From Opitutales bacterium (lineage in GTDB: Bacteria; Verrucomicrobiota; Verrucomicrobiia; Opitutales; JAJFLR01): a stretch of 45,883 nt of DNA. Shown here piece after piece: positions 8,262 through 45,325 of the stretch. The stretch covers positions 81,621 to 127,503 of the forward strand of contig JAJFLR010000035.1 in the NCBI GenBank assembly GCA_021772565.1. Direction: 5' to 3'. How positions within the stretch are numbered: the first letter of the stretch is position 1; each line of letters opens with the position of its first letter. The notes under the pieces were generated by a model. It did not search any database. It saw nothing but the letters and a program-made list of their open reading frames with translations, and was not told the DNA's origin. The position numbers and the translations under genes were made by a program.

Positions 8262-10621
8262 CTACGGGACGAAAACAAGGCGAAAGCCAATGTTGAAGCT
8301 GCGGATAACGGGGGTGGCGCCGCTGCGATTAGCCGAACGGCAGCCCTCCGCACCGTCGTACCACGACCCACCACGCAACACACGATCCGAACCTATTTCA
8401 GGCCCGATGGGATTCTTTACAATACCTTTCTCTTTACATTCTTTATAGAAATCAGAGCCATACCAGTCCGAACACCACTCAAAAACATTGCCGTGCATAT
8501 CGTAGAGTCCCCATTCATTAGACGGGTAACTTCCAACCGATATAGTTTTCTCAACATATTTACCTGTTGGGAGATTATTGTATGGATAATTGCCATTGTA
8601 ATTTGCCTGATCAGTGGTCAGGTTCTCACCAGTATTAAACGGCGTTATAGTGCCGGCACGACAAGCGTATTCCCATTCCGCTTCAGTAGGCAGTCTGAAT
8701 TTGTTGGATTTCTTACTAAGCCATTTACAATATTCGCTGGCGTCATTCCAGCTAATATGAATCACCGGATGTTGTTTATTTTTTTGAATATCTCCACTTA
8801 CATCACACTTCCAATTTACACCTGATTTTTTCTTATAATCTTTCCCAGTCCAAATGTAACTGCCACCTTTTTTATCTGCATCAGTTTTGTAATTTCTATC
8901 TGCATCAGTTTTGTAATTTCTATCTGCATCAGTTTTGTAATTTCTATCTGCAATAAACGTTTCGAACTGAGCTACTGTAATCGGGTATTTCGCCATATAA
9001 AAATCGTCAAGTCTAACCAAATGCTGGGTTTCTTCATCTCTTCTACTAACTTCGCTTTCTGGACTTCCCATTAGAAATTGATCGCCATGAATCAAGATAA
9101 ACAAATTGGGATTAGGTAAACCATTTTCCAAACAGAATTGTTCGGCCATATCCAGCCCTTGTAAATTCAGCTCGTGCCAGAACTTGGTATTCTCAACAGC
9201 CTCTCTGGCAATGAAAAATTCAAAAATAGACTTGTGTGCAAATTTCCAATTGCCTTCTGCATCACGAGTAAGCAGTGATTGTCCGGTTATTTCGTAATCC
9301 TTTAAATCAATTTTGTTATCGCTTGCGACAACAATTGCATCATCGCGTTTAAGATAGAGCATATCTGATTCTCTGAGCTGCTTGTATATTTCAAGCGCCA
9401 CCTGCTGAGAATATTGATACAGGTTTTCTTTAAATTTTTCACGGTCTTCTTTTTTATGCTTTCTTTTATTACCTTCGCGCTCAATCCATTTCTCAATAAG
9501 TGTCTCATAGATCTCATAGGTATTGGAAAACTTCTGATCATCATCGACCAGATAGTCGATATAGCTGAGCAACATCGGACGCACCATCAGTTTGGGAGAA
9601 CTTTTCACAACCGATAGGGCCGCTTGCTTTTTATTACGATTCCATAATTTGAAAATGCCATATTTTTTATTTAAATAACGATGGATATCTTTCTCCTCAA
9701 AAGGCGAAAGATAAATCTTTCCAAGAGTGTGATACCCGGAACTCCCGTAACGTGGTATTTTCAACTCGTATGGGTTGTCTTCCTGGCCGGGAAAATATTG
9801 CGTACGGCTGGTTATCACGACTTCGCGAAAATTCCTGACGCTGTCAATGATTTCATCGAGTAGTTTTCGAAACCGTTCGTCATCAGTCAGCCCGTCCGGT
9901 TCTTCGGGAGGCAACAAGGCCTTGTACTCATCAAAAGCATCCAACAATAGAATGGTATTTCGAGCTTCCTCAGGCTTTATCTCTTTTATATGCTTTATAA
10001 TATCTTTCTCTCCGAAAGGAAAAAGCTTCATTTTATATTTGGAGCGAAAGTTGAAAATCGAATGATACCGCAAATACAGATTGATCATAAAAGTCGTCTT
10101 ACCCATTCCGGAATCGGCAAGCACAATGTAAAATTTTTCACTCTCTCTTTTTTCGTTAAATGCGGTCTTTAGAAAAAAAGGTATCAAAGGGGTTTTGGAA
10201 ATATATTTAGTTCCAAACTTTGGCTCTTCTTCGCGTGTTGGAGATTGATTTTGCCAATGTGTTGGAATAAACAATTCCCGTTTTTGTTGCACATCCTTAT
10301 AGCTATAACGATAGTGTACCAGCTCTTTAGCTGCTTTGCAGTTTTCGTCTCGTTCGTATTGCCAAGCATTGAACCAAACGGCAACCGCTGCATTTTCACC
10401 TTTGCCTTCCTCATCGACAATTTTATGCATCATGCGCATAAGAGAAGTTTTACCCGATCCCCATTTACCAAACACTCCGATAGTGATGGGGCTATGCGTG
10501 TGAAGTGCAGCACGTGCGAGAACTCCGGCAGTGTGCCTGAACTCAAGGTTATCGTTTCTTTCGCTGTCGAGAATGGGTTCATCACTCAGGAGTGAGAACT
10601 TTTTTTATCTATTTCTGCCAT
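8262..10621 (-). CDS. KAP/NACHT-type STAND NTPase with C-terminal FGE-sulfatase domain (frameshifted near the start)
   Basis: The frame open from GTG at 10475 gives 737 residues. Adding one A in the A7 run at 10600-10606 extends it to ATG 10621 (786 residues, starting MAEIDKKKFSLLSDEPILDS), which restores the full KAP-family N-terminus (TAGVLARAAL, PITIGVFGKWGSGKTSLM). Numbering from the GTG: first P-loop 3-10, KAP-like VWFNAWQYE 33-41, NACHT P-loop DSGMGKTT 121-128, Walker B LLLDAFDE 176-183, ITSRTQ 221-226, FAHKSIFEFF 412-421, FGE/CLec domain about 459-737 (RLPTEAEWEYACRAG, LYDMHGNVFEWCSDW, RVLRGGSW). The tail lacks the paired catalytic cysteines of true formylglycine-generating enzyme, so a binding role is likelier. 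Such STAND proteins are often conflict or signalling switches. The last 41 codons look like a retroelement-diversified variable region. Confidence 0.8.
8265..8387 (-). other. Candidate diversity-generating retroelement variable region (VR)
   Basis: These 41 codons at the 3' end of the FGE domain contain only 13 A in 123 bases on the coding strand, in a strongly A-rich gene. Codons for the invariant frame (RVLRGGSW, CRS, R, P, R, GFRLVFV) are almost free of A and all arginines use CGT or CGC. Most residues between them use RNY-type codons (TAC GAC GGT, AGC GGC GCC ACC, GTT ATC, AGC TTC AAC) that could each arise from AAC, AAT or GAT by A changes. This is the layout of FGE-type VRs. No template repeat or DGR reverse transcriptase is in the window. 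Confidence 0.45.
8874..8952 (-). repeat. 24-base in-frame triplication inside the FGE domain
   Basis: Three perfect 24-base units (8874-8897, 8898-8921, 8922-8945) plus 7 bases of a fourth encode three copies of DRNYKTDA at residues 510-533. The typical domain has this segment once. Being 24 bases long, the repeat keeps the frame. The copies are identical, so the expansion is recent or unstable. Confidence 0.9.
10600..10606 (-). other. A7 homopolymer at the frameshift of the STAND-FGE gene
   Basis: From ATG 10621 the minus strand reads MAEIDKKSSHS and stops. With one extra A in this run it reads MAEIDKKKFSLLSDEP and joins the long frame. This is the second A7 frameshift in the window, like that at 1597-1603. 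Confidence 0.65.
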
Positions 10622-20463: not shown

Positions 20464-20504
20464 TTGACGTGACACTTGACGTGACAGTTCTAGTGTTGTA
20501 AGGT
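20464..20504 (+). promoter_or_regulatory. Direct repeat and putative promoter of the MerR gene
   Basis: TTGACGTGACA occurs twice in direct orientation (20464-20474 and 20476-20486, period 12). The second copy supplies a -35-like TTGACG, with a -10-like TAAGGT 17 bases on (20499-20504). The core TTGAC plus TAAGGT resembles promoters controlled by MerR proteins. The symmetrical dyad expected of a MerR operator is weak (ACACT...AGTGT), so the assignment is tentative. Confidence 0.4.
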
Positions 20505-20518
20505 GCTGAAATTAAAAA

Positions 20519-20968
20519 ATGAAATTAGAACAACAAAATAAATATAGTCTTCAAGAAGTTTGCAGTATGACAGGTGTTAATCGCCGCAAACTTCGTTATT
20601 ACATTGATAGAGGACTTATTGACAGACCAGAAGGACCAAAAGGAAATGGTGCGTTTTACACAGAAAAACATGTCGATCAACTCTTGGAGACACGACAGTG
20701 GAAGGATGCTGGATTATCCCTAGAACGCATTCAGGGAATTGTAAAAGGAGTAGTTAAAAACCAAAAAGGATCAGGGTTAACTCTACCACCACTTAAATCA
20801 AAAAAAACAGGTGATGTTGATATTTGGAATCGAGTATACATATCTGATGGAATCGAACTAAATATCAACACTCATCAATCAGGATTAAGAATAGAAGAAA
20901 TAAACAATCTAGTTAAAGTTATAACAGAGTATTTTCAAAATAATAAAATTCAAAAAACACACACTTAA
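20519..20968 (+). CDS. MerR-family regulator with an unusual C-terminal domain
   Basis: A 149-residue DNA-binding protein. Residues 8-80 form a MerR winged helix (YSLQEVCSMTGVNRRKLRYYIDRGLIDRP, FYTEKHVDQLLETRQWKDAGLSLERIQGIV). A Lys/Ser/Pro linker follows, then a short C-terminal domain (about 102-141; WNRVYISDGIELNINTH, EEINNLVKVITEYFQ) rather than the usual metal- or drug-binding coil. No cysteines fit a metal sensor; the only one is in the HTH. It precedes the two peptide genes in the same direction, and its last codons lie inside the 20-base repeat that recurs after each peptide gene. It probably controls them; the C-terminal domain may bind a peptide or protein ligand (speculation). Confidence 0.82.
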   Translation: MKLEQQNKYSLQEVCSMTGVNRRKLRYYIDRGLIDRPEGPKGNGAFYTEKHVDQLLETRQWKDAGLSLERIQGIVKGVVKNQKGSGLTLPPLKSKKTGDVDIWNRVYISDGIELNINTHQSGLRIEEINNLVKVITEYFQNNKIQKTHT

Positions 20969-20971
20969 TTT
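20951..20971 (+). repeat. Repeat AAAAAACACACACTTAATT, copy 1 (overlaps the merR stop)
   Basis: First of three near-identical copies. It encodes the last residues of the MerR protein (QKTHT-stop) and marks the left edge of the tandem duplication. The next copies begin at 21216 and 21487, exactly 265 and 271 bases on. Confidence 0.9.
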
Positions 20972-21017
20972 AATACAATTAATTAACTAACAATAATATC
21001 AAAATAAGGAGATAAAT

Positions 21018-21194
21018 ATGAGTGAAGAAAATAAAAAAGAGAATGTAAATGTTGAAGACCTTCCACAAAGAGCTTCGGCATTAAACGAAGACGAACTCAA
21101 AAAGGTATTTGGTGGTAGTAATCCAAATTATTCAAGTCGCCGACGTAACGCTAATAATAATGCTAATTATTCTTCTAGAAGAAGAAACGGTTAA
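21018..21194 (+). CDS. Double-glycine leader peptide, putative RiPP precursor 1
   Basis: A 58-residue peptide that begins MSEENKKENV. The leader (1-33) ends in DLPQRASALNEDELKKVFGG, the amphipathic E-L-x-x-V-x-G-G pattern of double-glycine secretion leaders recognised by C39-type peptidases. The core (34-58) is SNPNYSSRRRNANN followed by NANYSSRRRNG: two copies of NYSSRRRN, six arginines, no Cys, Thr or acidic residue. An AAGGAG ribosome binding site sits 7 bases before the ATG, unlike nearly all other genes here. It is too short for most gene finders. No modifying enzyme or ABC exporter is in the window. The product could be a modified peptide, bacteriocin or signal. Confidence 0.8.
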   Translation: MSEENKKENVNVEDLPQRASALNEDELKKVFGGSNPNYSSRRRNANNNANYSSRRRNG

Positions 21195-21215
21195 ATTAAT
21201 ATTTTGAAATTAACT

Positions 21216-21236
21216 CAAAAAACACACACTTAATTT
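21216..21236 (+). repeat. Repeat AAAAAACACACACTTAATT, copy 2
   Basis: Identical to copy 1 over 21 bases, located between the two peptide genes. It marks the junction of the tandem duplication. Confidence 0.9.
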
Positions 21237-21283
21237 CAATTAAAATAATATATTATCAATAAAATCAAAATAAGGAGATAAAT

Positions 21284-21466
21284 ATGTCTAAAGAACTGAT
21301 AGAAAAAAAAGCACAAGTAACTGTTAAAGACCTTCCACAAAGAGCTACCCCATTAAATGAAGAGGAATTAGCAAAGGTTTTTGGAGGAAGTAATCCAAAC
21401 TATTCAAGTCGTCGCCGTAACGCTAATAAGAATGCTAATTATTCCTCTAGAAGAAGGAACGGTTAA
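21284..21466 (+). CDS. Double-glycine leader peptide, putative RiPP precursor 2
   Basis: A 60-residue paralogue of precursor 1, beginning MSKELIEKKAQVTVK. Its leader ends in DLPQRATPLNEEELAKVFGG and its core is SNPNYSSRRRNANKN followed by ANYSSRRRNG. Against precursor 1 the core differs at a single residue (N to K), although five more codons differ silently; the N-terminal part of the leader has diverged. The 5' region ATCAAAATAAGGAGATAAAT is identical to that of precursor 1. It is followed by copy 3 of the repeat and a strong terminator. The silent changes indicate selection for the core sequence. Confidence 0.85.
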   Translation: MSKELIEKKAQVTVKDLPQRATPLNEEELAKVFGGSNPNYSSRRRNANKNANYSSRRRNG

Positions 21467-21486
21467 TTTATAAATTAAACTTTCCC

Positions 21487-21505
21487 CAAAAAACACACAC
21501 TAATT
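21487..21505 (+). repeat. Repeat AAAAAACACACAC-TAATT, copy 3
   Basis: Third copy, with a small deletion (ACACTAATT instead of ACACTTAATT). It leads directly into the terminator. Confidence 0.85.
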
Positions 21506-21506
21506 A

Positions 21507-21540
21507 AGGGGCCTCAATTTCTAATTGAGGCCTTCTTATA
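21507..21540 (+). terminator. Rho-independent terminator of the MerR-peptide unit
   Basis: GGCCTCAATT, loop TCT, AATTGAGGCC form a perfect 10-bp stem (21510-21532) followed by TTCTTATATTT. It ends the merR and peptide transcription unit and faces rarA, which is on the other strand. Confidence 0.9.
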
Positions 21541-24004: not shown

Positions 24005-25663
24005 ATGGATATTGAAACTTCTCCCAATATTAGATCTCCATTGATTTGGCTGGTTGCGCCAATTCTTGTCGGCTATTTGGTGGGATTCTATCAGAATGAG
24101 ATAGACATCTTAAGTCTCGTCCTACCCGGAACTTTATTTTCCGGATTTTCACTTATTTTATGCCAATCCAGCTCAAATAAATTTCAACGATTCTGGCCGC
24201 TACTCTTTCTTACAGCTGGATTTTTACTAGCCTGGAGCTATTATTTAATTCGATCTGATTCAACAAATGAGTGGCAAGACAAGCCACCTCGCGAAGTGAT
24301 TTTAAATTTAAAAGTAACGCGAATTTTTGACTCGAAAAAAGAAATAAAAACCAGAACAGGAATTGCTATAATTAATGAGACTGAAAAACATACTAGTGAT
24401 CTGATTGGTAAAAAAATCTACTTTAGTTTATCAGAAAAAAATAAACCTAATTCGCAAACAATTTTGCAGTCATCAGAAATTAAAATTAAAGGCGTTATTA
24501 AAAGTCTGGATACAAATGATGATGCAAATAAATTTTATTCATATCTAAAAAATAATGGTGTGCAATTCGAATTGAATCGAATTAAAATATTAAAATTTAT
24601 TGATGCAGGAAACTTATTTTTTCAGTTCTGTAATCGACAAAACGCAAAAATTAAAAAAATCCTGGAACTCGGTAAATCAGAGAGCCATGCATTTTCAAAT
24701 ATCTATATCGCCATGCTGTTGGGAAAAAAAACAGCACTGGCGCCCCAGCAGAAAAATGATTTTCTAAAAAGTGGAACGATGCATTTGTTTGCCATTAGTG
24801 GCCTGCATGTCGGAGTCATTGCTTACACGCTTTTTTATATTTTATATTTACTCAGGATTCCACAAAAACCAGCTGCACTGATTGGACTCACTTTACTATT
24901 TACCTACATAGAAATTACCGGTGCCTCAGCATCAGCTGTTAGGGCATTCATAATGGTATTTGTAATATGGCTGGGAAAAGTAATTCTCAGAAAAAATAAT
25001 ACATTTTCGTCACTGCTGTTTTCCGCCTTAATAGTATTAATTATAGATCCCGGCCAATTATTTAATCCCGGCTTTCAACTCTCATATACCGTTGTCGGCT
25101 CAATCATACTTTATGGCATACCACTGCAAAACTACTTATTAAATAAGCTTACCCTATTCAGAGGTTTGCCGGAAATCAGTTTTCAATTAAAACATTATCT
25201 ATCCTTATGGATGCTAAGAAATTTGATTACCCTATTTTCAATCTGTTTTACAGCCACCCTATTTAGCACACCACTACTAATAATCTATTTCAATATTCTA
25301 ACACCCGGCGCAATAGTACTGAATATGGTACTCATCAGCTTAGCCAGCTTGTTAATGGTATCAGGGTTAATCTCAATAATATTGGGTTACTTAAAACTAA
25401 CTGCATTGAGTACATTCATCAATCATGGCGCCTGGGTGATAATTTGGCTAATAGAAAAATTAGTTGAAATTTTTATAAATATTCCGGGACTCTTTCTCGA
25501 TGCAATTTTTAAAAATAGTTTTTTCTGTCCAATATCGTTACTTCTAATGATATGTCCAGTTCTGTTATTTCATTGTAGAATTTTCAAGTCCTCAATAATT
25601 TTGTTCATAGCGCCCCCAATTTTTCTGGTACTAATAATATTTTTTGGTGTAACTATTATTTAG
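24005..25663 (+). CDS. ComEC/Rec2-family DNA-uptake channel, short form
   Basis: A 552-residue membrane protein. Two or three N-terminal transmembrane segments (about 13-80) precede a soluble OB-like domain (about 95-200) and the competence domain, which starts with FAISGLHVGVIAYTLFYI and ITGASASAVRAFIM, the hallmark of ComEC. At least seven further transmembrane segments follow. Full-length ComEC proteins carry a C-terminal metallo-beta-lactamase domain, which is absent here; the protein ends in a hydrophobic segment. Short forms exist in several phyla. The family moves single-stranded DNA across the inner membrane during transformation. It ends with an 8-base convergent overlap with the PIN-domain gene. 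Confidence 0.87.
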   Translation: MDIETSPNIRSPLIWLVAPILVGYLVGFYQNEIDILSLVLPGTLFSGFSLILCQSSSNKFQRFWPLLFLTAGFLLAWSYYLIRSDSTNEWQDKPPREVILNLKVTRIFDSKKEIKTRTGIAIINETEKHTSDLIGKKIYFSLSEKNKPNSQTILQSSEIKIKGVIKSLDTNDDANKFYSYLKNNGVQFELNRIKILKFIDAGNLFFQFCNRQNAKIKKILELGKSESHAFSNIYIAMLLGKKTALAPQQKNDFLKSGTMHLFAISGLHVGVIAYTLFYILYLLRIPQKPAALIGLTLLFTYIEITGASASAVRAFIMVFVIWLGKVILRKNNTFSSLLFSALIVLIIDPGQLFNPGFQLSYTVVGSIILYGIPLQNYLLNKLTLFRGLPEISFQLKHYLSLWMLRNLITLFSICFTATLFSTPLLIIYFNILTPGAIVLNMVLISLASLLMVSGLISIILGYLKLTALSTFINHGAWVIIWLIEKLVEIFINIPGLFLDAIFKNSFFCPISLLLMICPVLLFHCRIFKSSIILFIAPPIFLVLIIFFGVTII

Positions 25664-26090
25664 ATATTTCAATAAAAGGATTCCGAATCTCTAATTCTCC
25701 AATTAGTTGTCCATGCTGCAAATCTTCTGAAAACAGAATCTTAGCTCCAGATTTAATCGCAGAAGCAATAATCAAACTATCATAAAATCTATATCTATAG
25801 TTCAATTGTATATGTAGAGCTGAAGACCAAATATCATTGCTCGGAAATATTCGACACATCGGCATAAGAATATCGTTTAAATAAGTAACGGCCTGATCTA
25901 GTGACATTGGCTTGTCCCATTTGTGCAAGGCAACATTAATAAACTCCTGAACTACCTGCCAGCTGATAACCCCTAATCCACTTTGCAAACTGTTTTCGAT
26001 GAGACCTGCAGCACATTTTTGTTTTTCGGGGACAAGCCTGTCAAATGAGTATACTAAAACATTTGTATCAAAAAAATATTCAACGTTCAT
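25656..26090 (-). CDS. PIN-domain toxin (VapC-like)
   Basis: A 144-residue PIN nuclease. Visible acidic positions are Asp8 in FFDTNVLVYSFD, Glu in VISWQVVQEFIN, Asp in FYDSLIIASAIKSG and the Asp of LFSEDLQHG, the pattern of VapC-type RNases. It is encoded directly after, and overlaps by 11 bases, a ribbon-helix-helix-like gene that is its likely antitoxin. Confidence 0.88.
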   Translation of the reverse strand: MNVEYFFDTNVLVYSFDRLVPEKQKCAAGLIENSLQSGLGVISWQVVQEFINVALHKWDKPMSLDQAVTYLNDILMPMCRIFPSNDIWSSALHIQLNYRYRFYDSLIIASAIKSGAKILFSEDLQHGQLIGELEIRNPFIEISK

Positions 26091-26307
26091 TCATTTCCTC
26101 ACGACTAATTTTTTTCTTTCCTACTGAAACTTGCTTTACTGTATCTTTCATAAATTCACGGTAGTTACTCACTCGCTCACTTCCAGAATCAAAAGTAACC
26201 AGCCAGTCACGAAACATCTGATTCAATGTAGTATGCCTCTCTCTAGCAATAGCTCTGGCATGCTCAATTACATGTTCATTGGCACTTAATGTAATATTTT
26301 TCATCAC
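26080..26307 (-). CDS. VapB-like ribbon-helix-helix antitoxin
   Basis: A 75-residue protein starting MMKNITLSANEHVIEHARAIARERHTTLNQMFRDWL, the ribbon-helix-helix pattern (strand KNITLSA, then two helices) of VapB-type antitoxins. The C-terminal Lys/Glu-rich tail would contact the PIN toxin. It is the first gene of the pair and starts at ATG 26307. Confidence 0.82.
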   Translation of the reverse strand: MMKNITLSANEHVIEHARAIARERHTTLNQMFRDWLVTFDSGSERVSNYREFMKDTVKQVSVGKKKISREEMNER

Positions 26308-29565: not shown

Positions 29566-30537
29566 ATGAATGAAACTGCAAAATTAATACCGGCGCCAAA
29601 AGTTAAAAATTCTCTCGATAGACTTAAAGAAAATATTGGGAAGTTTATAAAGGGCAAAGATGAGGTGATCGATAAAGTTATTATTTGTCTGGTAGCTTCA
29701 GGCCATATTTTAATCGAAGATTTGCCGGGATTGGGCAAAACGACATTAGCCTACTGTTTGGCACGTTCGATAGATTGCGAGTTTACGCGGATACAGTTTA
29801 CCAGCGATTTATTACCTACAGACGTAATTGGGGTTTCAATCTATGATGATTCAATTAAAGAATTTGTTTTCAAGCGAGGCCCTCTATTTACAAATATTTT
29901 GTTGGCTGATGAAATAAATCGGACAACGCCCAAAACCCAATCTGCATTGTTGGAAGTTATGGATCGTGCTAAAGTTTCAGTAGAAGGACAGACTTACTCC
30001 ATTGCTCATCCATTTATGGTTTTTGCGACACAAAACCCGGTAGATTATGAAGGCACATTTCCTCTTCCAGAAAGCCAGATGGACAGATTTTTAATGCGTT
30101 TGCAAATGGGCTATCCTTCGTTTGATAAAGAGTTAGAAGTTATGAACTCCGGATTTCTAAAATACGATAGCATACAAACCGATCCTGTTATCACACGGAG
30201 CGAAATTCTGGAGATGCAAAATTTTGTGCACCAAATTTTTGTTGAGGAAAGTATTTTAAATTATATACTAAAAATTGTTACTGCAACTCGAGAAGTTAAA
30301 GAATTACGAGCAGGCGTCAGCACTCGAGGTGCACTGTCGTTGAAAATCGCAGCGCAAGCAGCAGCACTAGTCGATGGTCGAAGTTTCGTAGTTCCAGAAG
30401 ATGTTTTAAAAGTTGCACTCCCTACTCTATCGCATCGGTTAGGTTTAATACGTCAAACTTCAGACTTACTTGAGGAAAGAAGAATTACTGATGGTATTTT
30501 GGAAAACATTTTAGAAGAAATTCCAATGCCGACCTAG
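29566..30537 (+). CDS. MoxR-family AAA+ ATPase
   Basis: A 323-residue chaperone-like ATPase. Walker A is [12 protein letters not shown], Walker [22 protein letters not shown], sensor 1 [23 protein letters not shown], and the arginine-rich sensor 2 region [13 protein letters not shown]. It is the first gene of the MoxR, DUF58, transglutaminase operon, a common trio in many phyla with a role in envelope protein assembly or maturation. It starts at ATG 29566 with no Shine-Dalgarno sequence, like most genes here; 20 bases separate it from the DUF58 gene. Confidence 0.95.
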
Positions 30538-30557
30538 ATTATAAATTAAATAAAATT

Positions 30558-31724
30558 TTGAGTAGCCAAACAAAAACTTATAGATTTGCTGATTCGCCAG
30601 CATCTTCTGATTGGGCTGATCCCGGATATTTCACCCAACAGTCAAAATCTGGAAATTTTGCCAGGGTTTTAGTTCAATTAATTAAGCCACCCAAAGGACA
30701 CAAAACGCTACCCACCCCAGCCGGTATTGTTTTAATCATACTATCATTAGGGATTGGCTCTGCTGCTTACAATACTTCCAGCAATATTTTATTTATAACA
30801 TTATCACTGCTGTTATCAAGTTTACTGCTCAGTGGAATTTTATCGTGGATAAATTTTAAAAGTACCCAATGGCGACTCAATTTGGAAACTCACTTCAGAG
30901 CCGGTGAGATAACGCCAATTAAAATTGAATTAGAAAATAAGAAGAAATTAATTCCAACATACAGTCTATTTTTTAAATTGAGCGCTGATTCATCTAACGT
31001 AATAAAACAACTTTATCTAAAAGAGAGATTGGATCCCGGGAAAAATATATCATTGCAGTGGCTCTACACACCACTGAAGAGAGGTATTGAAACTATTAGT
31101 ATTCGTGGCCTTGAATCACAATATCCGTTTGGGTTTTTAAGAAAAATTATCGGTGAAGAAATCCACAAAGACGTTTCAGTTTGGCCAGCGAGAATTCAAT
31201 ATAGTTTTAAGCCACAATCGGGTAGACGATCCGGAAAAGATGGCACAACTGTTCTTAAACCAGGTGCCGGTAGCGAATTGATAAATTTACGTGAATATAA
31301 AGCCGGAGACCCAATGCGACGTGTCCACTGGAAAGCAAGTGCGCGAATCAAAAAATTGATGGTTAGGGAATTATCTGAAGAAAACAATGATGCTTATTTG
31401 ATATTCATTGAGACACCATCCGATATTTGGAATAATAATGATCAATTTGAAAAATTATGTAGTTTTGCAGGATCACTAGCAGAGGACTTATATAGAAAAA
31501 ATAAATTATGGGGAGCAGCTATAAATGATAATCAGCCATTTGTTATAAAGCGTTTGAGTGATTTGCATAATTTTTTAGAAAAATTGGCGAGACAAGAAAC
31601 TATAAAAAATTATAAACCTGTAACAGAAATAGCAAATGCGACTATAGTCACTTTTAGTCCAGGTACAGGTGATAATGTTAATGCGTATGTCGGAGGAAAT
31701 AAAGCGGGCTCAACTGAATTTTGA
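30558..31724 (+). CDS. DUF58 domain protein
   Basis: A 388-residue membrane-associated protein. Two hydrophobic segments (about 55-72 and 76-95) are followed by a beta-rich part and the DUF58 signature REYKAGDPMRRVHWKASARIKKLMVRELSEENN, a vWA-like fold. Start is TTG 30558, since no ATG is available near the conserved N-terminus. It works with MoxR in most genomes. It overlaps the transglutaminase gene at its 3' end by about 40 bases, which indicates coupling. Confidence 0.9.
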   Translation: MSSQTKTYRFADSPASSDWADPGYFTQQSKSGNFARVLVQLIKPPKGHKTLPTPAGIVLIILSLGIGSAAYNTSSNILFITLSLLLSSLLLSGILSWINFKSTQWRLNLETHFRAGEITPIKIELENKKKLIPTYSLFFKLSADSSNVIKQLYLKERLDPGKNISLQWLYTPLKRGIETISIRGLESQYPFGFLRKIIGEEIHKDVSVWPARIQYSFKPQSGRRSGKDGTTVLKPGAGSELINLREYKAGDPMRRVHWKASARIKKLMVRELSEENNDAYLIFIETPSDIWNNNDQFEKLCSFAGSLAEDLYRKNKLWGAAINDNQPFVIKRLSDLHNFLEKLARQETIKNYKPVTEIANATIVTFSPGTGDNVNAYVGGNKAGSTEF

Positions 31725-33951
31725 AGAGTTAATTCAACTAAAATGGATCATCGGCGGCATACTTGCATTAGTGTCGATCTGGTCGTTATTTTTTCTTGAT
31801 TTAAACAGCGACGCATTACTGATAATTACTTATGTAATTATTATTGGGGCAGTAATTTTCCCGTCTATACCATGCAAGATTCCAGACATTGCCTGGAAAA
31901 TTATCACACCGGTACTTATTATATTTATTTGTTTTGATTTTATTTTTTCACGCCCCGATATTATATCACCACTGGTTAGGATGATTCTATTAATTACGCT
32001 AATCAGATCACTCCAATTCAGAAAAAGACGTGAAGATTTACAGTTAATTTTGCTGTGCCTGTTTATGGTTATTGTATCAGGAGTGCTCACACTATCACTC
32101 TCTTTTGCTATTCAGATAACGGTATTTATGGTATGCGCAATGGCATACCTGTTTATTATAAATTTAACGGCTTATTCAGATAGAAATGTCGAACCCTCAA
32201 AATCAATATGGATAAATTTTAAATGGGGCTGGTTTCTCAGTAGAATCTGGAAAGTGTTTAATGTTAAAGTCATAGGATTTGCGACAACATTATTTTTAGG
32301 CGTTATGATTTTTTCATCTATAATATTTTTTATCATGCCTCGATTTCAGTTAAACCAGGCAATTCCTTTTCTGAATTTGGCGAATCAAAAAACATTATCA
32401 GGCTTCAGTGAAAATGTAAAATTTGGTGATGTAGTGGATATAATTTTAGACAACAGTGTCGCTTTAAGAGTTGATGTTCCCAAGAATACAAAGTTGCCAA
32501 AAATACCGTATTGGAGAATGATTGTTCTCGATGAATATAGAAATGGTTCCTTCCAAATGTCTCCATCAGCTAAAACAAAAAACAGTGTTTTTAGTGATAT
32601 CAGTTTCCCCTATCAAAATGAAGAAAAACATAGTTTAAATAATGCTGATGCGAAATGGACTTTTTACCTGGAGGGAGGCATAAGTCGTTATTTACCGTCA
32701 ATAGGACCATATGAGAAAATAAGATTTCAGACGAAACAGGATTTAGAGTTTAACTATTATTTACAGTTATTAAGTGTAAAAAATATTTCGAATAACGTTC
32801 TATTTTACCAAACAACAAATATGCAGCCGGCCTCAAAATTATTCGCAACGTTTGAAGAAAGATCATTAAAAATGATGGCGCCAATTTTTATTGATATTAC
32901 TAAAAAAATAAAGCCCGGGGTAATAAAGTACCCGCAAACTACATTAGTCCTACCTGATGGTGATGAAAATACAGCAACACTCAAAAGAATCGTTAGTGAA
33001 ATATCAAATGGAGAAAAGTTACCGATAATTGAATTTTGCAGCCGGACAATTGAATATTTAGAAAAAAACCATACCTACTCTTTAAAAAGTAGTAAACCTA
33101 CTGGCAGCACCGATATTTTAGTACGTTGGCTGGATTCAAAAAACTCAGGCCATTGTGAACTATTTGCCGGTGGTTTTTCACTCATAGCACGATATGCAGG
33201 ATATCCAACCAGACTAGTCGCAGGATATAAAGGTGGCAACTGGAATGGTTTTGAAAATTACTACATGATTCGAAATAGTAATGCTCACGCATGGTGTGAA
33301 ATTTACGATGATGGCATTTGGTATCGAGTAGACCCTACTCCTGGATCGTCAAATTTTAGTGGATTGGAAAATGTAATGGCGCACACAAATAATATTGTGT
33401 CAGATAAGACCTGGCGTGCTTACTTGGATAGTTTGAAGATTCTATGGTATAGAAGAATTGTTAATTTTGATGAGGAACAACAAACTGAGTTAGCTGGAAA
33501 TTTGAAAAAAAAATCTGCAACATACATAGCTTTAATTAAAGAAAAAATTCAGGCTAAGATAGATCAGCTTAAGCTGTGGATAAAAAGTCCCTGGGGTAAC
33601 CAAAAAATCATAAGCACATTATATAATGCTATGATAATGAGTATAGGTACAATTTTAATAATTTTGCTATTAAAAATATTCAGAAAAATTATTAGCAAAG
33701 AGAGCATTCATCCAATAAGAAAAAAAGCAGGAAAATTTATTCAACAAATTAGATCTAGGAAACCAGAAATCTCAGATGCATTTCTGAATAAACAAACCAA
33801 GTTCAATTCCACAGTTTCTGTTCAGGATCTTGAAGAATGGTTAAACATTTATAAAAATTTACTGAACCTGCGTTTTGGCAATTCGACAAATTGGCCAGAT
33901 AGTAAAGTCGTTTTTAGAAGTGCTAAAATATTGATCGGAAAAAGAAATTAA
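31687..33951 (+). CDS. Membrane-bound transglutaminase-like protein (DUF3488/TgpA type)
   Basis: A protein of 754 residues (ATG 31687; 31669 and 31681 also lie in frame). Six or so transmembrane segments occupy the first 220 residues, then a periplasmic region holds the transglutaminase core: Cys in SKNSGHCELFAGGFS, His in NSNAHAWCEIYDD and Asp in YRVDPTPGS, the papain-like triad. A further transmembrane segment (AMIMSIGTILIILLLKIF) and a basic cytoplasmic tail follow. Such TgpA-like proteins act with MoxR and DUF58 partners on envelope proteins; the substrate is unknown. Last gene of the operon. Confidence 0.92.
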   Translation: MSEEIKRAQLNFEELIQLKWIIGGILALVSIWSLFFLDLNSDALLIITYVIIIGAVIFPSIPCKIPDIAWKIITPVLIIFICFDFIFSRPDIISPLVRMILLITLIRSLQFRKRREDLQLILLCLFMVIVSGVLTLSLSFAIQITVFMVCAMAYLFIINLTAYSDRNVEPSKSIWINFKWGWFLSRIWKVFNVKVIGFATTLFLGVMIFSSIIFFIMPRFQLNQAIPFLNLANQKTLSGFSENVKFGDVVDIILDNSVALRVDVPKNTKLPKIPYWRMIVLDEYRNGSFQMSPSAKTKNSVFSDISFPYQNEEKHSLNNADAKWTFYLEGGISRYLPSIGPYEKIRFQTKQDLEFNYYLQLLSVKNISNNVLFYQTTNMQPASKLFATFEERSLKMMAPIFIDITKKIKPGVIKYPQTTLVLPDGDENTATLKRIVSEISNGEKLPIIEFCSRTIEYLEKNHTYSLKSSKPTGSTDILVRWLDSKNSGHCELFAGGFSLIARYAGYPTRLVAGYKGGNWNGFENYYMIRNSNAHAWCEIYDDGIWYRVDPTPGSSNFSGLENVMAHTNNIVSDKTWRAYLDSLKILWYRRIVNFDEEQQTELAGNLKKKSATYIALIKEKIQAKIDQLKLWIKSPWGNQKIISTLYNAMIMSIGTILIILLLKIFRKIISKESIHPIRKKAGKFIQQIRSRKPEISDAFLNKQTKFNSTVSVQDLEEWLNIYKNLLNLRFGNSTNWPDSKVVFRSAKILIGKRN

Positions 33952-42496: not shown

Positions 42497-45325
42497 ATGA
42501 AATCAAATTTTATAAACCTAAAAGGAGCGCATCAGAATAATCTAAAAGGATTTGATCTCGATATCCCATTAGGCAAACTTATAGTAGTAACGGGGTTGAG
42601 TGGCAGCGGTAAATCATCTCTAGTTTTTGATACTCTTCATGCCGAGGGACAACGACGCTATGTTGAGACTTTTAGCCCGTATGCACGCCAATTTATGGAA
42701 ATGCTGGACCGTCCGAAAGTTGATTCAATTGAAAACATCCGTCCCTCAATTGCAATTCAACAAAGTAATACCGTCAAAACTTCGCGCTCTACTGTCGGGA
42801 CGATGACAGAATTGTGCGATTTTTTTAAAGTTTGGTTTTGTCACGTCGCAGAACTCATAGATCCGGAATCTGGTGATAAAATTGAAAACGATAACCCACA
42901 TTCTATCTGGAAAAAATCATACAGTAATTTTAAAAATAAATCTCTCATAATATCTTTTAAAATTTCAAAGCCCGATAATTTGAGTTGGTCTGAAATTATT
43001 CAATCTCTCAAAGGACAAGGATATAATCGAATAATTATTTCTAATAAAATTCAAAAAATCGATGATGTAAATTTTAATAATAAAACCGCAAATCATATTC
43101 ATGTCATTCAGGATCGTTTAAAATGTTCTAAACAAAATCAGAACAGATTTATTGAGTCTGTTGAGTCTGTCATAAAATTAGGACAGCATGAGATTTTTAT
43201 TTTTGATCAGGACGGTCACAAATTAGCTCATTTTTCTAAAGATCTGATATCAAAAGTTTCAGGAAGAAAATATTCAAAACCCACAGCCGCACAATTTACT
43301 TTTAATTCGCCCGTCGGGGCTTGTCCCAAATGCCGTGGATTTGGCCGTGTAATAGAGATAGACTACAAACTGGTAATCCCTGATCATTCCATCAGCCTGG
43401 AAGATGGAGCTATTAGAGCATTTCAGGGATCGGTCTATAGTGAGAGCTTACGTGACTTACTCAAAGCGTGTAAGGCTAATAAAATACCAACAAAAATTCC
43501 TTACGTTCGACTATCTCAAAAACAGTTAAATTTTATTTTTGATGGTGAGCAGGACTATCAGACAAAAAAACAAGGGTGGTATGGTGTTAAGAAATTTTTT
43601 GATTGGTTGGAAAGTAATACATACAAAATGCACATCAGAGTTTTTTTATCTAAATTCCGTTCATATGTAAAATGTCCCCAATGTAAGGGGAGTCGCCTAA
43701 AAGAAGACTCATTATACTGGAAATGGAATAATTTTACATTACCGGAATTATATAATTTCCCTATTACAAAATTACTTAAAGTAATTAACGATAAAAATAA
43801 ATTAACAGGCAACCATCAAGCTGATGTAGCTGCTGAATCAATAGTCAATCGACTCGATTATTTAGAAAAAGTCGGGCTCGGATATTTAACGTTAGATCGT
43901 CAATCACGAACTTTATCAGGAGGCGAAGTTGAAAGGGTAAACTTAACTGCCTGCCTTGGCACTTCATTGGTCGATACATTATTCGTCCTCGATGAACCGT
44001 CAATTGGATTGCATTCTTGTGATATTGAAAAATTACTCGAAATTTTGCGCCGACTGACAGATCAAAATAATACTGTAATTGTTGTTGAGCATGATGAATC
44101 AATAATTAGTGCTGCAGATTACATAATTGAGATTGGACCAAAGCCAGGATTGCTAGGAGGAGAAATTGTTTTTAAAGGTAATTATAAACAAATCATAAAG
44201 TCAAAACGCTCAATCACCGGCTCATATTTATCAGGTGATAGAAAAATTAATAACCCAATAAATCGTAGATCTATTAATTTCTCAAATTCAGCTAAATCAA
44301 AAAAACTAACGAATAAAAATATTAGCCCCTCTCTAATTATATCTAACGCGAATAAACACAATATCTCAAAATTAAATTTATCAATACCACTAAACAGATT
44401 CGTCTGCATTAGTGGAGTATCGGGATCTGGAAAATCAACATTACTTAATAACGTTATATATCAGGGCTTTTTATCAAACATTGGAAAAGTCACCGATGCA
44501 CCAGCAAATTTTGATAGTATTAAATGTACTACTAAGATTGATGAAATCGTTATGGTTGATCAATCGCCGGTGAGCAAAACCCCTCGATCAAATCCTGCCC
44601 TTTATATCAATGCCTGGGATGATATTCGTACACTTTTTGCATCTACTAATGACTCAATATCCAGCGGACTGACACCATCACATTTTTCATTTAACAGCGG
44701 TGACGGTCGATGTGAAAGCTGTAGAGGTCTCGGATATGAACATGTTGAAATGCAGTTTATGGCGGACGTCTATGTGAAATGTGAGAGCTGCAATGGAAAA
44801 AGATTTAAGCCTGAAATCTTAAAAATCAAATGGAAAACAAAATCTATTTTTGACGTTTTGAATCTCACTGTTGATGAGGCGATCCAGTTCTTTACTGATC
44901 AACCAAAAATAAAAAAAAGTTTTAAAACCTTAAATGATGTCGGTCTTGGCTACCTCCCATTAGGACAACCCATCAATACTTTATCAGGTGGTGAATCACA
45001 ACGGGTAAAATTAGTTAAGTACATCTCAAATACTAAAAAAAATAACTGCCACAATTTAATTTTATTAGATGAACCCACCACCGGGCTGCATCGTCATGAC
45101 ATAAAACGTTTAATTATTTTACTACAAAAATTAGTAGAGTTAGGAAATAGCTTAATAATAATTGAACATCAAATGGATATTCTAAAGTCTGCAGACTGGA
45201 TAATTGAAATGGGACCGGGAGCAGGCGTAAACGGAGGTAAAATTTATTTTCAAGGGACTCCAGAAAATCTTATTAAAACTGATACCATGACAACCCAATA
45301 TATGGAATTAGCACTAAGTAATTAA
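42497..45325 (+). CDS. UvrA-like excinuclease ATPase, second divergent paralogue
   Basis: A 942-residue UvrA-type ABC protein. First Walker A GLSGSGKSS (33-41), second GVSGSGKST, signatures LSGGEVERVNL and LSGGESQRVKL, Walker B FVLDEPSIGLH and [11 protein letters not shown]. Zinc pairs are CPKC, CPQC and CESC...CESC, but the N-terminal CPxC module is absent (WFCHVAELIDPESGDKI). The damage-sensing segment VETFSPYARQFMEMLDRP is closer to canonical UvrA than that of the gene at 4079. The first signature has Val-Glu in place of Ala-Gln (LSGGEVER). Whether it works in nucleotide excision repair or as a specialised exporter/resistance-type paralogue is not known. It starts at ATG 42497 without a Shine-Dalgarno. 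Confidence 0.9.
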   Translation: MKSNFINLKGAHQNNLKGFDLDIPLGKLIVVTGLSGSGKSSLVFDTLHAEGQRRYVETFSPYARQFMEMLDRPKVDSIENIRPSIAIQQSNTVKTSRSTVGTMTELCDFFKVWFCHVAELIDPESGDKIENDNPHSIWKKSYSNFKNKSLIISFKISKPDNLSWSEIIQSLKGQGYNRIIISNKIQKIDDVNFNNKTANHIHVIQDRLKCSKQNQNRFIESVESVIKLGQHEIFIFDQDGHKLAHFSKDLISKVSGRKYSKPTAAQFTFNSPVGACPKCRGFGRVIEIDYKLVIPDHSISLEDGAIRAFQGSVYSESLRDLLKACKANKIPTKIPYVRLSQKQLNFIFDGEQDYQTKKQGWYGVKKFFDWLESNTYKMHIRVFLSKFRSYVKCPQCKGSRLKEDSLYWKWNNFTLPELYNFPITKLLKVINDKNKLTGNHQADVAAESIVNRLDYLEKVGLGYLTLDRQSRTLSGGEVERVNLTACLGTSLVDTLFVLDEPSIGLHSCDIEKLLEILRRLTDQNNTVIVVEHDESIISAADYIIEIGPKPGLLGGEIVFKGNYKQIIKSKRSITGSYLSGDRKINNPINRRSINFSNSAKSKKLTNKNISPSLIISNANKHNISKLNLSIPLNRFVCISGVSGSGKSTLLNNVIYQGFLSNIGKVTDAPANFDSIKCTTKIDEIVMVDQSPVSKTPRSNPALYINAWDDIRTLFASTNDSISSGLTPSHFSFNSGDGRCESCRGLGYEHVEMQFMADVYVKCESCNGKRFKPEILKIKWKTKSIFDVLNLTVDEAIQFFTDQPKIKKSFKTLNDVGLGYLPLGQPINTLSGGESQRVKLVKYISNTKKNNCHNLILLDEPTTGLHRHDIKRLIILLQKLVELGNSLIIIEHQMDILKSADWIIEMGPGAGVNGGKIYFQGTPENLIKTDTMTTQYMELALSN

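Follow-up and report, generated by a model that had tools for sequence, protein, structure and literature searches.

In cyanobacteria, long-type C39 exporters with an N-terminal CAP_ED domain occur together with HlyD and a SurA rotamase in the gene cluster groups I, II and VI described by Wang, Fewer and Sivonen in 2011 (PMC3140520). The group I and II clusters have diverse short precursors with a double-glycine (GG) motif, of which often few or none lie beside a group I exporter, the average in group I being 0.35 precursors nearby (PMC3140520). In Synechococcus elongatus, efficient secretion of the small GG-motif proteins EbfG1-4, which have a role in biofilm, needs the cysteine of the C39 exporter PteB (PMC4997328). 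HetC of Nostoc, a developmental exporter for which no GG precursor has been identified, combines cNMP-binding, C39 and ABC domains, the first of which binds ppGpp in vitro (PMC10986499). Class II microcins of the microcin V type have a GG leader and type-1 export. On the regulatory side, the closest relatives are MerR regulators that precede VIT-VWA genes.

Altogether, our analysis of an Opitutales bacterium (Verrucomicrobiota) makes it probable that a locus within the 45.9-kb stretch of DNA analysed (the window) is a small regulated unit for two peptides that are secreted via the one C39 exporter of the genome with an intact QxDCG motif. The genome is a draft of 3.57 Mb in 124 contigs, 95% complete. 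The features of the locus are as follows.

20464..20487, + strand: 12-bp direct repeat TTGACGTGACAC/TTGACGTGACAG, which may serve as a -35 box and as a site for the regulator (repeat search)
20519..20968, + strand: MerR-family regulator, 149 aa, whose C-terminal domain (strand, strand, helix) is of the kind associated with VIT-VWA (Pfam, homologue searches, model)
20951..20965, + strand: CAAAAAACACACACT copy 1, overlapping the merR 3' end (repeat search)
21006..21011, + strand: AAGGAG ribosome-binding site of peptide 1 (read directly)
21018..21194, + strand: peptide 1, 58 aa, GG leader (33 aa) and core SNPNYSSRRRNANNNANYSSRRRNG (ORF translation, codon comparison)
21216..21230, + strand: CAAAAAACACACACT copy 2 (repeat search)
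21272..21277, + strand: AAGGAG ribosome-binding site of peptide 2 (read directly)
21284..21466, + strand: peptide 2, 60 aa, GG leader (35 aa) and core SNPNYSSRRRNANKNANYSSRRRNG (ORF translation, codon comparison)
21487..21501, + strand: CAAAAAACACACACT copy 3 (repeat search)
21508..21534, + strand: intrinsic terminator hairpin, 12 pairs (terminator scan, folding)

The two tandem GG peptides of 58 and 60 residues, each with an AAGGAG site, are present as the original prediction had described them. The ribosome sites are identical in both copies, 6 nt 5' of each ATG, and the leaders end in NEDELKKVFGG (peptide 1) and NEEELAKVFGG (peptide 2). Both peptides are short ORFs with an ELxx[VI]xGG leader, and they are the only convincing short GG-peptide ORFs in a whole-genome scan with the DNA pattern [DE][LF]xx[VIM]xGG. 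Between the copies the core has a dN of 0.017 and a dS of 0.40, based on small numbers of changes (five synonymous codons and one non-synonymous), while the leader is looser (dN 0.235, dS 0.477; six synonymous and ten non-synonymous changes). NYSSRRRN occurs twice per core with identical amino acids, and the underlying nucleotides are alike at just 14-16 of 24 positions; the paired motifs use the same codon at only 2-3 of 8 positions and have switched Ser and Arg codon families. An octapeptide that is identical as protein and different in its codons argues that it is kept by selection. The core is under purifying selection at the codon level and, together, these observations indicate that the peptides are real genes.

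The peptide genes form a tandem duplication of about 270 bp bounded by three perfect copies of the 15-nt CAAAAAACACACACT, one 3' of each of the three genes. The intergenic DNA around these copies has diverged, and the repeat was not found elsewhere in the genome; it may be an RNA element or mark where the duplication took place.

The export machinery lies on a separate contig, unlinked to the peptide genes. The genome has two Peptidase_C39 matches, and one of them (contig C73) belongs to an operon with HlyD, a cNMP-C39-ABC exporter and an outer membrane efflux protein (TolC), which make a complete type-1 set. Its C39 domain has QMDCG and is, as read from the translation, the sole intact QxDCG domain of the genome; in a second cNMP-C39-ABC exporter (L002, C17:47614-47997), likewise read from the translation, the C39 domain is without the cysteine motif. 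Divergent to the C73 operon is a PpiC/SurA-type isomerase (PPIase), whose best NCBIfam relative, below the cut-off, is TIGR04500 ("putative peptide maturation system protein"). The combination of cNMP(CAP_ED)-C39-ABC, HlyD and SurA/rotamase seen in cyanobacterial groups I, II and VI (PMC3140520) is thus present here, with the difference that the operon includes a TolC-type gene. Because precursors are scarce near group I exporters, a detached precursor locus is not unusual. HetC has the same cNMP-C39-ABC architecture and lacks an identified precursor, whereas candidate precursors exist here.

The leaders point in the same direction. Four plasmid neighbourhoods were scanned for GG peptides. On pLBY of Leptolyngbya boryana, an 81-aa ORF with DVQDLPARATVVSMVALSSIYGG is encoded next to a PPIase/cNMP-C39/HlyD exporter, and it aligns with the window leaders (VNVEDLPQRASALNEDELKKVFGG) over 30 ungapped residues with identical spacing and a common motif, DLPxRA-x7-L-x2-[V/I]-[F/Y]-GG; the alignment scores 59, against a highest value of 36 in 2000 shuffles. 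In Chondrocystis, the peptide next to a cNMP-C39 exporter carries ISEDELKSVCGG. Peptide 1 matches it with a score of 51, reached by none of 2000 shuffles (highest 48), and peptide 2 with a score of 41, reached by six of 2000 (highest 51), so that the weak match of peptide 2 makes this link suggestive rather than proof. In a Calothrix neighbourhood there is an NGG-type ORF that lacks the full motif, and no convincing GG peptide was found in the Burkholderia plasmid neighbourhood. From these alignments, the window leaders appear to resemble leaders that lie beside such exporters, clearly for Leptolyngbya and more weakly for Chondrocystis. Among 388 genomes of the phylum, DLPxRA...GG occurs twice at this locus and at one other site, which by our own estimate is about what chance would give, and the N-terminal half of the exporter has no relative at E <= 1e-20 among 86 other genomes of the order. 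Both leader and exporter are therefore restricted to this genome in a sample without sister species. No promoter motif common to exporter and peptide locus was found in the sequence compared. The leaders and the C73 exporter, found on another contig of the same genome, support the original idea that the GG peptides leave through a C39 exporter whose gene lies elsewhere, and we infer that this exporter takes the window peptides.

The regulator has a MerR_1 match (Pfam, E = 3.5e-17) over its helix-turn-helix (HTH), in agreement with the earlier assignment. Its C-terminal part had been called non-standard; a domain is indeed there, and it is the W.RV.I.DGIEL-type domain shared with the MerR partners of VIT-VWA proteins. 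With modest confidence it is modelled as two strands followed by a helix, the model being poor past the HTH (in residues 81-110, mean pLDDT per block is 38-57) and built on an alignment from which three plasmid-record rows were left out; in Foldseek, the best matches listed were almost all MerR-family folds. When plasmids were searched with the window MerR alone, the top two matches, in Massilia and Aquabacterium, each lay directly 5' of a VIT-VWA gene, and the plasmid VIT-VWA-paired MerR proteins are 31-38% identical to the window protein. Seven relatives in the phylum, from a search with a small profile, all precede VIT-VWA genes; the query alignment for that search already included two VIT-VWA-type members, a bias, and those two had topped the prior search with the window MerR alone. 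In phages there were only two weak partial matches. A VIT-VWA gene thus lies directly 3' of merR in nine of nine relatives examined, whereas here the two peptide genes come next and a VIT-VWA gene is absent from that place. The sole VIT match of the genome (L053, contig C106) has no MerR within the 3.3 kb examined. Given these two observations, it seems that the regulator has changed partners and that the peptides now stand in the place of VIT-VWA. By eye, the C106 VIT-domain gene adjoins a sigma-54-activator-like gene on the opposite strand.

The direct repeat upstream of merR, which had been taken for a promoter, is real: no pair of adjacent 12-mers in the window other than TTGACGTGACAC/TTGACGTGACAG (20464/20476) agrees at 11 or more of the 12 positions. 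Its promoter role is less secure, since the -10 candidate TAAGGT agrees with the consensus at just 3/6 positions and a consensus promoter scan did not list the site. The strong terminator is borne out by folding (21508-21534, MFE -18 kcal/mol, z = -4.4), and 3' of it lies a RarA/MgsA gene on the opposite strand. Elsewhere the window encodes a protein in which an FGE-sulfatase domain is fused to a part with weak NACHT/STAND-like NTPase matches (8262-10475, - strand), a short ORF followed by a PIN-domain gene, likely a toxin-antitoxin pair (25656-26307, - strand), a row of MoxR-type AAA, DUF58 and TgpA/transglutaminase genes (29566-33951, + strand) and a PEP-CTERM protein.

Export logic of this kind is known; the peptide core and its pairing with MerR were found nowhere else in the collections searched. 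Protein and profile searches of 103 genomes of the order and 388 of the phylum gave no core homologues, nor did searches of plasmids, or of GTDB contigs and IMG/VR with patterns that did not contain NYSSRRRN. Two weak matches were inspected and rejected, there being no GG peptide at either site (L007 in G049, L039 in G104), and the remaining ones were weak and in long or stop-broken frames. The original claim of a core without a described family is thus supported within the collections searched. Compared with the cyanobacterial group I and II clusters, which in Leptolyngbya include the same DLPxRA...GG leader, the host here is non-cyanobacterial, the precursors are detached with a MerR gene of their own and the core is found nowhere else.

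Cleavage behind GG would release SNPNYSSRRRNAN(N/K)NANYSSRRRNG, a predicted peptide of 25 residues with two NYSSRRRN motifs, six Arg and no hydrophobic stretch, a net charge of about +5.5 to +6.5 and a GRAVY of -2.4. Calculated average masses of the unmodified 25-mers are about 2,926 and 2,940 Da. A class II microcin or bacteriocin that kills related strains would share its GG leader, its export by C39, HlyD and TolC and its strongly cationic core, and there is a weak Bacteriocin_IIc match. The locus, however, has no immunity gene and the very hydrophilic product no hydrophobic segment, which together argue against a classic bacteriocin and leave this reading unlikely.

About as unlikely is the reading of a true RiPP, in which an enzyme from another part of the genome would modify the Arg/Tyr/Asn/Ser core prior to export. 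GG leaders are common on RiPP precursors, the duplicated core motif is strongly selected and models of RiPP leaders give weak matches below their thresholds. However, neither the surroundings of the C73 exporter nor the Pfam-scanned ORFs of the window (its last large ORF, 42497-45325, lying outside the scan) yielded a modifying enzyme, nor was any SPASM-domain protein found in the genome (YcaO, LanM-type, ATP-grasp and peptide arginase were outside this genome-wide search). The label "RiPP-type" or modified peptide given in the original prediction is accordingly unsupported. Modification is unlikely, and a secreted, probably unmodified, hydrophilic and cationic peptide is likelier than a RiPP.

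That the locus is the relic of a cassette, mobile or in decay, that has lost expression would suit a core known from one genome only, a MerR without its usual VIT-VWA partner and a small tandem duplication, but is very improbable given the low dN/dS of the core, the intact ORFs, the same ribosome sites in both copies and the strong terminator.

In our model of secretion by the C73 exporter, the VIT-VWA-type MerR probably controls its own transcript, which would read into both tandem peptide genes and stop at the terminator, such that merR and the peptides are presumably co-transcribed. The DLPxRA...ELxxVFGG leader would be recognised on each precursor and cut after GG; the exporter (cNMP-C39-ABC, HlyD and TolC, with the PpiC/SurA-like isomerase) would move the product outside; and the released 25-mer would act outside the cell through charge and aromatic contacts. 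Judged by its composition, its role is most likely in matrix/adhesion or signalling, and less likely that of a membrane-piercing bacteriocin. By analogy, the EbfG-type biofilm peptides may be a better functional model than a classic bacteriocin, the likeness being several small GG proteins and a C39 exporter, by description and not by sequence. We know of no MerR link for EbfG1-4 or PteB.

Secretion of such peptides by the C73 exporter would extend cyanobacterial-type cNMP-C39 peptide export to another phylum, Verrucomicrobiota, and supply candidate substrates for an exporter class that is often without known substrates, as in HetC. The VIT-VWA-paired regulators have the same MerR HTH and C-terminal domain as the regulator here, and the locus places this family with secreted peptides where a VIT-VWA partner usually sits. 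At low odds, we speculate that the peptide with its duplicated NYSSRRRN motif is an extracellular signal or matrix peptide under control of the MerR, that the MerR C-terminal domain senses a secreted or surface product and that the peptides replaced VIT-VWA; if true, this would be a MerR family that watches extracellular structural proteins, its C-terminal domain common to the VIT-VWA regulators.
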